The notes under the pieces: generated by a model
Database searches by the model: none
What the model was told of the DNA's origin: nothing
What the model saw: the letters and a program-made list of their open reading frames with translations, nothing else
Assembly: GCF_030499515.1 (NCBI RefSeq)
Contig: NZ_JASTWJ010000001.1
Coordinates: 2,522,001-2,586,000 of the forward strand
Origin: Streptomyces sp. DT2A-34
GTDB lineage: Bacteria > Actinomycetota > Actinomycetes > Streptomycetales > Streptomycetaceae
Direction of reading: 5' to 3'
Length of the DNA: 64,000 nucleotides
Shown here: positions 30,628-34,004 of the stretch, piece after piece
Layout of the letters: each line of letters starts with the position of its first letter
How positions within the stretch are numbered: position 1 is the first letter of the stretch
Translations under genes and position numbers: made by a program

Positions 30628-30837
30628 TTAGGGGGTTGGGCTCGCCATCAGCTTCAAGGCCAGCGCAGGACAGTCCGTCGCTGCTCTGCGTGCTCGTTTG
30701 ACCGTTCTGGCGGGGACGGGAGTGTCGGCGACGAACGGGTAGCCCCACTCGTCCAGCGTGATGTGGTCCGGCAGGAGTTCCGCACACAAACCGTGGCCCT
30801 CGCAGGACGTCCAGTCGATGTCGATCCGCTGGTCCAT
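30628..30837 (-). CDS. Small ferredoxin ([3Fe-4S] type)
   Basis: A 69-aa ferredoxin from ATG 30837. Cysteines lie in CEGHGLC and TDCPALAL, a three-Cys pattern (CX5C...CP) as in actinobacterial P450-type [3Fe-4S] ferredoxins. The middle EWGYPFVADTPVP is typical. It is the last gene of the redox operon, starting 1 bp after the NuoF-like stop. It probably passes single electrons between the NuoF-like flavoprotein and the membrane cytochrome; a nearby P450 gene, the usual partner of such ferredoxins, is absent from the window. Confidence 0.88.
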   Translation of the reverse strand: MDQRIDIDWTSCEGHGLCAELLPDHITLDEWGYPFVADTPVPARTVKRARRAATDCPALALKLMASPTP

Positions 30838-30838
30838 G

Positions 30839-32054
30839 TCAGGTCTCCTGGGGTACGGGCAGTAGCGGCGTGCGGTCGGTCGCGGTGCAGAAGCCGCTTG
30901 CGTGGGCGTCGAGTTCGGGCGCGAAGGTCGTCAGGGCGCTGCGGACCAGGCGGACCGTGCCGTCGGGGTGGTGGCAGGCGCCGCGGCCCTCCACCAGGCC
31001 GGCCCAGCGGGCCACGTCGGTGCGGGTGCTGCCCTGGGGCCCGGCGGTGGCCAGGGTGGCGAAGGCGGCGGCGATGCGGGGCAGGCCGTTGAGGCAGGGG
31101 CCGCACTGGCCGGCCGACTGGAGGGCCAGGTGGCGCAGCACTCGGGAGGTTTCCGCGAGGCCGCAGCGGTCGGCGGGGAGGGCGGCGAGGACACCGGCGC
31201 CCAAGTGCGCCGAGTCCACGGTGAGTCGGGCCGCATCGGCGGCCGGGATCCAGGTGCCGTGGTAGCCGCCGAGCAGGACGGCCGACATGCCGTCGAGGGG
31301 CAGCAGCCGGTGCAGCGGCATACCGAACGGGGCCTCCAGGACCCGGGGTCCGCGTCCCGGCACATGCACCGTGCACAGGGCGCTGCCGGGCTGGGCAGGG
31401 GTGCCGGCGGAGCGGAACCAGTCGGCGCCGTAGCGGGCGATCAGGGCGAGGTGGGACAGGGTCTCGACGTTCTGGACCAGGGTCGGGGCCCGGTGGACGC
31501 CGCGTTCGCGAACCGGCGGGCTCTGGTACGTGGGCAGGGCGGCGCCTGACGAGACGTACCGGACGAGGGCCGAGGACTCGCCGGACAGGAACCGTTTGGG
31601 GAGCCGTACGACTCGCACGGGCACGGGGTCGTACCCGCTGGCCGAGGGCCGACTCGAGGTAGGACGCGCCGTCCTCCACCGCCAGATGGGCTTCCCCCGC
31701 GCCGACCGCGGCGGCGGCCAACTGCAGGCCGTCCAGGACGAGATGGGGTGACAGGCGCAGCAGCGTCCGGTCCTTGCGGCTCGCGGGCTCGCTCTCGGCG
31801 CCGTTGGCCACGACGACCGGCGTACGGCCCGAGCGCCGGCCCGCCTCGGTCACCGACAGCAGCTTGCGGTAGACGGGGAACGCCGCTCCCCCGCGACCGG
31901 TGAGGCCGGACTCGGCGACCTCCCGCAGCAGGCCGGCGGGATCGCCGTACGGCACGGGGCCGTAGCGCTTTTCGTGCGTGGTGAAGTCGGCCGGGGCGCC
32001 GCCGGGGGCGAGCAGCCGGGGGGACATGTGGACGTCGGTGAAGGTCATGGTCAC
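30839..32054 (-). pseudogene. NuoF-like NADH-binding flavoprotein gene, interrupted by a +1 frameshift
   Basis: The first part, from GTG 32054 (AAGGAG upstream), shows FMN/NADH-site motifs GRGGAAFPVYRKLL and NGAESEPASRKDRTLLRLSPHL. Near 31634-31636 the frame shifts: CAGCGGGTACGACC has one more G than needed to continue as QR-YDPVPVRVVRLPKRF. The second part continues in another frame to 30839 with APTLVQNVETLSHLALI, an SLBB-like region and an Fe-S segment (QSAGQCGPCLNG and GACHHPDG). The first of the usual NuoF cysteines (ESCGxC) is Ala here. If intact it would be about 404 aa. A natural inactivating mutation and a sequencing error in a G-run cannot be told apart. Both ends overlap neighbouring genes. 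Confidence 0.85.
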
Positions 32055-32632
32055 GGTCGGGCTCCTTCAGCCGTGCGGAGCAGGGCGGCGGGCGTGCGGC
32101 GGGCGGCGCGTGCGGAGTGGGCGAGGCGGAGACCGAAGGCGGTGACCACGGCGGCCACGCAAGCGACGGTGAGCCAGGTCATCCAGTCGCTGCCGGTGTC
32201 CGTGCCGATGCCGACGCCGTGGATCAGGGCGATGGGCCAGGAGGCGTACGCCAGCCAGTGCACGGCCCGCCAGGTGCGGTGGCCGACGCGTTCCCGCAGG
32301 AGGCTGGTGACCAGTACCGCGAGCATCAGGTCGAAGGCGACCGTGCCCAGGCCCAGCCACAGGGGCTGGTGCTCGGAGGCGAAGGGGACGAGGACGTCGA
32401 GGACGGTGATGTCGACGTAGTCGTCGATCACCGCGAACGCGATGTGCGGGGCCAGGAAGGCCGTGGCGGAGAGGGAGAGGGTGCGGTGGAGGGTGACGGT
32501 GCCGAAGCGGGGCAGGCCGGGGATCCTTCCGCGCAGGCGTACCGCGATGCCGAGCAGGACGACGACCGTGAACAGGACCAGGCAGACGGCGCCGGTGGCG
32601 CGGTTGGCGTACCAGAGGGTTTCGGAGGTCAT
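32051..32632 (-). CDS. Ferric reductase-like transmembrane cytochrome
   Basis: A 193-aa integral membrane protein from ATG 32632, overlapping the apbE stop (ATGA); its own stop overlaps the next GTG (GTGA). Hydrophobic helices include AVCLVLFTVVVLLGIAVRL, LHRTLSLSATAFLAPHIAFAVI, LGTVAFDLMLAVLVTSLL, VHWLAYASWPIALIHGVGIGT and WLTVACVAAVVTAFGLRL. The histidines LHR, APH, RAVHW and LIHG lie within or beside helices and can be haem b ligands, as in the ferric-reductase/YedZ-like domain. It probably carries electrons across the membrane between the ferredoxin/NuoF-like proteins and an outer-face flavin. Confidence 0.88.
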   Translation of the reverse strand: MTSETLWYANRATGAVCLVLFTVVVLLGIAVRLRGRIPGLPRFGTVTLHRTLSLSATAFLAPHIAFAVIDDYVDITVLDVLVPFASEHQPLWLGLGTVAFDLMLAVLVTSLLRERVGHRTWRAVHWLAYASWPIALIHGVGIGTDTGSDWMTWLTVACVAAVVTAFGLRLAHSARAARRTPAALLRTAEGARP

Positions 32633-33597
32633 GCGGCCGGCTCCGGATCGGAGGCGGCAGCGGTCGGCCAGCCCGGTGTCGTGACCACGGTCCCGTCCTG
32701 CGCGACCAGCCGTGCCGGGAGGCCCAGCCGCGTCAGCCGGCGCTCCGCGCCCGCGCCCTTCACCAGGGCCGCCGTGCTCGCCGCGTTGGCGTCGGCGCAG
32801 GTGGCCGCGGCGACCGAGACGGTGCGCCAGGGCGAGCGGACGGGCAGGCCGGTGCGCGGGTCGACGATGTGGTGGAGGGCGTGGCCGCCGCGGCGCCAGT
32901 TGCGGGCCGCCGTGCCCGAGGTCGCGAGGCCTCCGCTGTGCAGGCCCACCGTGGCGTACGGCCCTTGCGTGGGCGTCTCGTCGACCGGGCCCGTGACGTC
33001 CTGGACGCGGATCTGCCAGCCGCCCGCCGGGGGTTCGCCCGCGACGGCCGTGTCGCCGCCGAGGCTCACGAGCACTCCGCAGCCGGCCGCTTCGGCGAGC
33101 ATCGCGGCGGCCCTGTCGGCCGCCCAGGCCTTGGCCGTGGCGCCCAGGTCCAGGCGGACCCCGGCCGGGACGCTGACCGTGCCGGTCTCCCGGTCCAGCC
33201 GCACCTGACGCCGGCCGGGAGCGCGCCGCACCCTCAGCCGTACCGGCCGGTCGTCCTCGCTGACCAGGGTGAAGTCCCGGTCGTAGCCGATCACTTCCAT
33301 CGCCGAGCCGACCGTCGGGTCGACGTCGCCGTCCGTGGTCTCGGCCGCGCGCAGGGCGACCGCGAGGGCCTCGGCGAGCAGGGGGCTGACCCTGACCGGG
33401 CGGCCTGCCGAGTCGTCGAGGGAGGCGAGTTCCGAGTCCGTACGGAAGCGGCTGCACGCGGCGTCGACCTCGGCCAGGTGCCGGGCCAGGAGGAGGTTGC
33501 AGGAGTCCAGCAGTGCCGGGTCGGTGACGACGAGCCGGACGCTCGTGCCGAGGGCACGCCAGTCGGTGGCGGCGGTCGTGCGCAGGGCTGTGCTCAT
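32629..33597 (-). CDS. apbE: FAD:protein FMN transferase
   Basis: A 322-aa protein from ATG 33597, sharing one base with the stop of the Ser-rich gene (TGATG). Family motifs are LGTSVRLVV, VDPTVGSAMEVIGYD, LDLGATAKAWAADRAA, VSLGGDTAVAG, HSGGLATSG and HHIVDPRTGLP. ApbE splits FAD and attaches FMN by a phosphoester to Ser or Thr of an exported or membrane target, in a motif of the type Dxx(S/T)GA(T/S), using Mg2+. No signal peptide is obvious, so the compartment is uncertain. Its target should be encoded nearby, and the directly coupled upstream gene ends in DSASGAS. Confidence 0.95.
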   Translation of the reverse strand: MSTALRTTAATDWRALGTSVRLVVTDPALLDSCNLLLARHLAEVDAACSRFRTDSELASLDDSAGRPVRVSPLLAEALAVALRAAETTDGDVDPTVGSAMEVIGYDRDFTLVSEDDRPVRLRVRRAPGRRQVRLDRETGTVSVPAGVRLDLGATAKAWAADRAAAMLAEAAGCGVLVSLGGDTAVAGEPPAGGWQIRVQDVTGPVDETPTQGPYATVGLHSGGLATSGTAARNWRRGGHALHHIVDPRTGLPVRSPWRTVSVAAATCADANAASTAALVKGAGAERRLTRLGLPARLVAQDGTVVTTPGWPTAAASDPEPAA

Positions 33598-34004
33598 CAC
33601 GACGCCCCCGAGGCGGAGTCGGCGGAGCCGCTGCCGGAGGTCAGGCCGGAGGAGGACGAACTCGACGAGGACGAACTCGATGAGGAGGAGTCCGACGCGG
33701 AGGAGTCCGACGCGGAACTGCTCGATGAGGACGAGGAGTTGTCGGTCGACGAGGAGTTGTCGGTCGACGATGTCGAGGACGTCGATTCCGTGCCGCCGCT
33801 CGACGTGCTGCTGGAAGTGCTCGTGCTGCTGGAGCTGCTCGACCCCGCGCTGCCGCTCGCCGTCGTGTCGGCGTCCGTCTGCATGGTGCCGATCAGGGCG
33901 AAGACCCCCGCGGTGGCCGCGAGCGTGATCGCCACCGCGGTCGCCGCCGTGCGCTGTGCTCCTCTGCGGACCGCTGCCGCGGCGCCTCTTTCCCTGGTAC
34001 GCAA
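33597..34004 (-). CDS. Membrane-anchored Ser-rich protein ending in a flavinylation-like motif
   Basis: A 135-aa protein, probably from TTG 34004 (GGAGG upstream). Residues 1-18 are basic, 19-41 form one transmembrane helix (TAATAVAITLAATAGVFALIG), and 45-135 are an extracytoplasmic tail more than half Ser. The last seven residues are DSASGAS, which fits the Dxx(S/T)GA(T/S) sites modified by ApbE, whose gene is translationally coupled. No FMN-binding (PF04205-like) fold is visible, unlike known small targets. Tandem DNA repeats (15 and 18 bp) within the tail suggest expansion. The opposite strand reads as an acidic frame but lacks gene features. That this is an FMN carrier is inference. Confidence 0.75.
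   Translation of the reverse strand: MRTRERGAAAAVRRGAQRTAATAVAITLAATAGVFALIGTMQTDADTTASGSAGSSSSSSTSTSSSTSSGGTESTSSTSSTDNSSSTDNSSSSSSSSASDSSASDSSSSSSSSSSSSSSGLTSGSGSADSASGAS

Follow-up and report, generated by a model that had tools for sequence, protein, structure and literature searches.

A 64,000-nucleotide stretch of the 10.3-Mb genome of Streptomyces sp. DT2A-34 (contig C1; herein referred to as the window) carries on its minus strand, from 34004 to 30628, five abutting genes with no gap larger than 1 bp, the first encoding a short Ser-rich membrane protein (herein referred to as the tail protein) and the second an ApbE-type flavin adenine dinucleotide (FAD):protein flavin mononucleotide (FMN) transferase. 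We conclude that this ApbE probably places FMN on the Ser that ends an unfolded tail anchored in the membrane, which would thereby act as an electron carrier outside the cell, and sequence comparison across the phylum points to the tail proteins as a genuine, conserved class of probable ApbE substrate that has apparently not been described before. ApbE moves FMN from FAD onto the last Ser or Thr of the motif D-x-x-[S/T]-G-A-[S/T], and these seven residues are sufficient as a tag, which works best at a protein terminus (PMC12052999; here and below, the cited papers are drawn on in excerpt). The window tail protein (33597..34004, minus strand; 135 aa, TTG start with GGAGGGG upstream) ends exactly in D-S-A-S-G-A-S (D129 to Ser135, 33600..33620), a motif kept in its relatives, and Ser135 is the proposed FMN acceptor. 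This terminus had been read correctly in an earlier note on the window, whose core idea was that the tail itself is flavinylated at its last Ser; a lone DSASGAS in a Ser-rich tail means little, however, and it is conservation that carries the case.

The window ApbE was searched against 150 genomes of the genus, the window genome included (E <= 1e-30), and 26 of them encode a window-type ApbE at loci that form three groups. Group 1 (ApbE 77-88% identical in its complete members) has Ser-rich tails, all 14 of which, including that of the window, end D-[SA]-[TA]-S-G-A-S; group 2 (51-55% identical) has tails rich in Pro, Ala, Gln, and acidic residues that end [HQ]-T-T-T-G-A-S in 11/11; and the three loci of group 3 (38-41%) end TRSSGS, TRSRGS, and NSRAS. 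The composition of the tail changes completely between groups while the final residues hold near one pattern. Within group 1 no variation is seen in the terminal residues D, S, G, A, and S; the last seven codons differ by 97 synonymous against 46 non-synonymous pairwise changes, compared with 334 synonymous against 1032 non-synonymous in the preceding 20 codons (compared unaligned). Two of the group 3 tail proteins (L065, L066) carry the TRSSGS motif twice, the internal copy being followed by GCG.

An alignment of 12 ApbEs (A1) then served as query against class and family genomes, yielding ApbE matches at the cut-offs used in 95/394 and 28/150 genomes, respectively; the three Streptomyces groups thus turned out to belong to a larger family. 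We examined 148 ApbE loci, including two FMN_bind controls, and picked the upstream open reading frame (ORF) at each by hydropathy and composition, blind to its last residues; an ORF with a hydrophobic segment was present in 138. Ten of these were judged to be mispicked and were removed by hand (L139, L165, L181, L142, L134, L130, L071, L180, L095, L069), leaving 128, and identical ends were merged to give 112 unique tails; the likely tail proteins of L130, L136, and L123 were missed by the automatic choice and stand outside these counts. Exactly 98/112 unique tails end in [S/T]-x-[G/A/S]-Ser (herein referred to as the broad pattern) and 64/112 in [S/T]-G-[A/G/S]-Ser (the narrow pattern). Shuffling the last 60 residues of each tail over 2000 rounds gives means of 8.1 and 1.0 and maxima of 17 and 5, and of 207 further genes at these loci, one ends in the broad pattern and none in the narrow pattern. 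The first motif place is mostly His, Gln, or Asp across the phylum; among the 98 broad-pattern tails, Asp is found there in 15, Gly at -2 in 64, and Ala at -1 in 32. When 21 diverse tail proteins are aligned, the sole invariant column is that of window Ser135.

A second sample was drawn by searching with conserved ApbE peptides and taking the best 80 named loci, which partly overlap the earlier genomes and include Streptomyces, Actinacidiphila, Streptacidiphilus, Frankia, Pseudonocardia, Amycolatopsis, Kutzneria, and Goekera among others, together with metagenome-assembled genomes assigned to Acidimicrobiia and Solirubrobacterales. Broad-pattern ends were found in 74 of these best 80 and narrow-pattern ends in 71; among the six misses, one (L308) ends TGAT, with Thr in the last place of the ApbE motif, and another (L302) is cut by the end of its contig. 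The earlier note had held that homologues in the same operon context should keep the C-terminal motif while the tail drifts, and the two samples (98/112 unique tails and 74 of the best 80) bear this out. The strict form that it proposed, DxxSGA(S/T), holds in the window group (14/14); phylum-wide the pattern is looser.

The tail protein consists of a basic N-terminus, one transmembrane helix, and a Ser-rich tail of ~97 residues. Hydropathy and charge predict a single transmembrane segment at residues 20-38 (33891..33947, minus strand) with a positive N-side, and the N-side is the more positive one in 125/128 tail proteins; therefore, the tail should be outside. An AlphaFold2 model from the single window sequence (mean predicted local distance difference test score, pLDDT, 48) contains one helix at residues 6-41 and falls below pLDDT 50 across nearly all of residues 44-135, so that the window tail is predicted to be unfolded. 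It has no Pfam family above the curated cut-off, a Pfam scan left 21/21 tail proteins without any family at E <= 0.01, in line with the expectation that the tail lacks an FMN-binding fold, and in an NCBIfam scan three unrelated families were matched only weakly, by 2, 1, and 1 tail proteins. We also considered whether the tail could be what is left of an FMN-binding protein and dropped the idea, as tails of differing composition keep the motif and none of the 21 scanned shows such a domain.

The adjoining apbE gene (32629..33600, minus strand; PF02424, E 2e-53) starts at GTG 33600 or ATG 33597, and its start overlaps the tail-gene stop (TGATG). The ApbE residues TSG and HHI(V/I)DP are conserved, as is DAN in groups 1 and 2, group 3 having Glu for Asp. 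The ApbE profile aligns with solved ApbEs (1vrm, 4xgw, 6nxi, and others), and the catalytic Ser, His, and Asp are recovered through the alignment to 1vrm and 4xgw, a comparison that did not extend residue by residue to Vibrio cholerae ApbE, whose catalytic residues are Ser241, His257, and Asp285 (PMC12052999). In 110/128 loci the ApbE domain follows the tail gene so closely that there is room for fewer than 25 residues; of the other 18, 16 have no strongly hydrophobic stretch before the domain and two (L147, L053) could not be judged. By room and hydropathy over these 128 loci, with no signal-peptide program run, an ApbE signal peptide is not apparent, and because of this flavin attachment in the cytosol before export seems likely. 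Cytosolic ApbEs exist, secretion or lipidation being typical and not universal (PMC12052999). In a tree of 78 tail-type ApbE rows and 14 control rows labelled FMN_bind (a label unproven for L188 and L194, whose loci have no FMN_bind), the two labels require 2 changes against a shuffled mean of 13.2; the deepest split is weak (76/89), and we do not claim monophyly of the tail type.

A flavinylation target of a known kind would offer ApbE another substrate, but no FMN_bind domain was detected by a local profile at the tail-type loci: 0/146, 0/26 in other classes of the phylum, and 0/80 in the best-80 sample. An FMN_bind protein in the cluster was rejected as the target on this basis. The same profile is positive beside 13 of 17 other apbE genes, which is not an unbiased rate, the profile having been trained on some of these control loci (L039, L040, L187-L201; non-tail-type ApbE matches, many near FMN_bind matches); at a fourteenth control, L192 (G174), FMN_bind lies just beyond the fetched stretch. 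Two of the controls are the further apbE genes of the window genome itself (L039, G000:C1:1870404-1871593; L040, 8354796-8356071). In both cases the neighbouring protein has two FMN_bind domains, and these apbE genes presumably serve other targets.

At the level of whole genomes, 42 of 80 good genomes with a tail-type ApbE have no PF04205 match, and a more sensitive local-domain profile adds FMN_bind in G174, G186, and G303, each with more than one ApbE match, leaving 39/80 without; G186 and G303 had each given a row to that profile. The domains in question (L195 in G303, L196 in G186, and G174:C1:246581-246787) are missed by PF04205 at E <= 0.001. In 34 of the 80 genomes, each with a single ApbE, neither profile finds FMN_bind. 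Where the locus of such a single-ApbE genome was at hand, 23/30 have a clear low-complexity tail protein with the pattern at the end or 1-4 residues before it, a count that leaves out the ORFs of L139, L181, and L165, judged not to be tail proteins; of the other seven, G263 has DUF2271 beside apbE, G194 a lipoprotein-like protein, and none was accepted in G152, G300, G372, G388, and G515. Streptomyces G085 likewise combines a single ApbE with a group 3 tail protein, and neither profile detects FMN_bind in it. NqrB/RnfD (PF03116) is absent from 35/35 genomes (the 34 single-ApbE genomes and G085), and DUF2271 exceeds the cut-off in one of the 35 and falls under it in three more. The earlier note had named an FMN-binding-domain target encoded elsewhere as a finding that would speak against it, and none is detected in the tail-type loci by the local profile or in the 34 single-ApbE genomes by the two profiles; together with the conserved ends, these comparisons strongly support the tail itself as the probable target at its last Ser.

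The remaining genes of the operon suggest where electrons might come from. A ferric-reductase-like membrane protein (FerRed; 32051..32632, minus strand, 193 aa, Ferric_reduct PF01794, E 1e-9) overlaps apbE by ATGA and the following NuoF-like gene by GTGA. The NuoF-like gene comprises a first part with the FMN/NADH-binding half (NADH, reduced nicotinamide adenine dinucleotide; 31625..32054, Complex1_51K PF01512, its homology stopping near 31625) and a second part in another frame with the iron-sulfur region (30839..31624, NADH_4Fe-4S PF10589), and it is spaced by 1 bp from a small ferredoxin (30628..30837, 69 aa, Cys pattern CxxHxxC...CP, Fer4_15 PF13459, E 4e-13), all on the minus strand. By a local profile, FerRed follows apbE within 600 bases in 132/142 loci, and loci with 2 kb of room have the NuoF-like gene in 59/84 and the ferredoxin in 61/84; in the best-80 sample, loci with 2.5 kb of room have FerRed in 66/70, NuoF-like in 65/70, and ferredoxin in 66/70. 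The window FerRed has four conserved His (H49, H63, H125, H138) in columns that are 98.5-100% conserved in 135 homologues and invariant in 23/23, for which we propose two bis-His haem sites, and Foldseek relates its model to STEAP and NOX membrane domains with probabilities of 0.99-1.00 but weak E values (0.03-0.3). FerRed is missing at ten loci, of which four have no tail protein either (L132, L134, L139, L169), two have one (L090, L103), three encode a lipoprotein-like protein (L171, L172, L176), and one is broken (L053); at L142 and L180, FerRed is present and the tail protein absent. The lipoprotein-like protein contains LAGCSS..., conserves a GWGQYGGSG region, and terminates in sequences such as HGQSKSS; it is possibly another type of ApbE target. 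Group 3 (L065-L067) has no NuoF-like gene, and the one FerRed scanned from it (L065) is fused to NAD-binding and 2Fe-2S domains. By eye, a P-type metal ATPase and proteins rich in Met are encoded next to L065 and L066, a setting that hints at reduction of metals. Also by eye, genes whose ends resemble those of histidine kinases or OmpR-type response regulators flank the operon in several genera (L054, L130, L142, L280, L288, L297, and L305).

We hypothesize that the tail protein is the substrate of the adjoining ApbE, which, as enzyme and motif homology suggest, would take FMN from FAD and attach it to the hydroxyl of Ser135, the last residue, in the cytosol, prior to export of the tail. One N-in/C-out helix is predicted to anchor the protein, such that the unfolded tail would hold its FMN-bearing end free outside the membrane, and the gene content suggests that electrons could pass from NADH through the NuoF-like protein, the ferredoxin, and the two-haem FerRed to the tethered flavin, which might swing to an acceptor in the cell wall, with metal ions as a candidate. 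Parts of the earlier proposal change in this scheme: its flavin wire becomes a tethered carrier, one flavin per tail allowing no more, and its outer-face flavin, for which the note considered no route, would need to be loaded in the cytosol before export, since the ApbE lacks an apparent signal peptide.

Several observations weigh against this reading. The ApbE seems to be cytosolic and the tail presumably outside. The terminal pattern is looser than the canonical motif: the -2 position is not Gly in 34/98 broad-pattern tails, the motif Asp is replaced by His or Gln in 55/98, and 14/112 unique tails lack the broad-pattern end altogether. The ten ORFs were dropped with their ends known, although the undropped set still ends in the broad pattern in 117/138 and in the narrow pattern in 79/138, against shuffle expectations of 9.8 and 1.3. 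In the other classes of the phylum (26 loci, counted by eye) the exact broad-pattern end was found in 10, a near end (such as TTGGSHP or TTGGSTPPP) in 8, and neither in 8. No tail protein was found beside apbE at L132, L134, L139, L142, L169, and L180, and at L181 (G263:C29:3073-3423) a DUF2271 protein stands in its place. Lastly, 25/26 genus genomes with the operon have FMN_bind elsewhere, so co-occurrence in the genus set alone leaves FMN_bind targets in play. In one ApbE target, an Asp-to-Ala change in the motif had small effects (PMC12052999).

The alternative that survives best concerns the window strain and not the family: the operon may be decaying there, its chain no longer working whatever the family does elsewhere. 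The NuoF-like gene of the window is split over two frames, one base out of register, with the switch at about 31625-31640 separating the first ~143 codons from the last 261, and in 12/12 full-length group 1 relatives both halves lie in one stop-free frame. A genome of the same genus, G104 (L053), whose fragments are 79-94% identical to those of the window, has a frame-shifted apbE, a deletion that fuses apbE to the NuoF-like gene, and no FerRed. Against decay, the remaining four window genes are open and the tail motif is intact, and the one-base register change could come from an assembly error; the frame change may be such an error or a real mutation. We regard decay as a serious contender, if somewhat the less likely case. 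The tail motif of L053 is intact despite its broken operon. Of the five overlapping minus-strand genes described in the earlier note, order, overlaps, and the 1-bp gap stand and the NuoF-like gene as a single open gene does not; similarly, the genes for a feed from NADH through NuoF-like, ferredoxin, and haem proteins are present, but the chain may be broken in the window strain because its NuoF-like gene is out of frame.

The conserved C-terminus could instead be a docking or sorting signal (a tether for ApbE, an export signal, or a guard against proteolysis), with FMN attached to another protein. The positions flanking the terminal Ser are less strictly kept than those of known ApbE targets, and a protein leaving the cytosol could need a C-terminal signal, but the ends match the ApbE motif by position (Ser or Thr at -3, mostly Gly at -2, a small residue at -1, and a hydroxyl at 0), down to a Thr as the last residue of L308. 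A substitute target is also hard to find, as FMN_bind and NqrB/RnfD were not found in the 34 single-ApbE genomes and DUF2271 was found in one, DUF3570 and others not having been searched. We consider this alternative unlikely. A chance by-product of Ser-rich composition is far less credible still: Ser, Thr, Gly, and Ala prevail in many tails, and a single terminal DSASGAS is weak, yet the observed ends far exceed the shuffled ones (64 against 1.0, 98 against 8.1), Pro/Ala/Gln-rich tails share the ending TTTGAS, and the differences in the final seven codons are mostly synonymous, such that the shuffles and the comparison across groups refute it. Equally improbable is selection on the DNA, with the last codons serving as the ribosome-binding site or start of apbE, as the window overlap and TCGGGGGCG, a possible ribosome-binding site, might suggest; the pattern is kept where 60-137 bases separate the stop from the point at which the ApbE domain is estimated to begin (for example L081, L086, L085, L127, L154, L160, and L145) and the codons vary synonymously, which largely refutes it.

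Flavinylation of the tail has partial precedents. The MsrQ-like (PF01794) flavinylation clusters of Actinobacteria likewise combine apbE with a ferric-reductase-like membrane protein and, in 31/1797 cases, a NuoF-like protein (Meheust et al. 2021, PMC8238504), but these clusters typically hold an FMN-binding-domain gene, where the tail-type loci have a tail protein and none such was found, and the tail-type apbE shows no apparent signal peptide. That survey counted only clusters in which a signal peptide or lipidation site was present on a target gene, and its authors state that less prevalent substrates have yet to be identified (PMC8238504). Carriers of PF04205 (RnfG/NqrC and SaFMN3 of Streptomyces azureus, the latter predicted to be membrane-anchored outside the cell) are also linked to apbE and bear FMN on a Ser or Thr of a motif of the [S/T]GA[S/T] type, but hold it in a folded domain (PMC10339131), whereas the window tail is predicted to be unfolded. 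The RNF and NQR complexes differ in that the NqrB/RnfD subunit is absent from the 35 genomes searched, the window genome not being among them. The ApbE-modified FMN reductases of Lactococcus carry the motif on a flexible C-terminal extension, as the tail proteins would, but this extension lies close to a flavin site folded within the reductase itself (Huang et al. 2024, PMC11334425), and the tail proteins have no recognised flavin-binding domain. Huang et al. list structured ApbE targets plus one unstructured C-terminal extension (PMC11334425), and the natural ApbE targets described in these excerpts have their flavin in or beside a folded domain. The engineered Flavin-tag uses the same seven-residue motif, best at a terminus (PMC12052999); it is a tool, whereas in the tail proteins the terminal motif seems to be a natural design. 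We found no description of a foldless tail as an ApbE target in the literature searched, from which subscription journals and preprints were mostly missing and in which supplements were unread.

The operon of the window thus belongs to a family spread over actinobacteria, and the full chain may not be running in the window strain. For the family as a whole, we think it likely that the tail proteins represent an actinobacterial class of covalent flavoprotein without a flavin-binding fold, in which a tethered, swinging cofactor would carry electrons from FerRed into or across the cell wall and which would be the missing substrate of many orphan ApbEs. If this is true, a covalently attached flavin does not need a binding pocket to function, and a substrate would be assigned to many actinobacterial apbE genes that have been without one.

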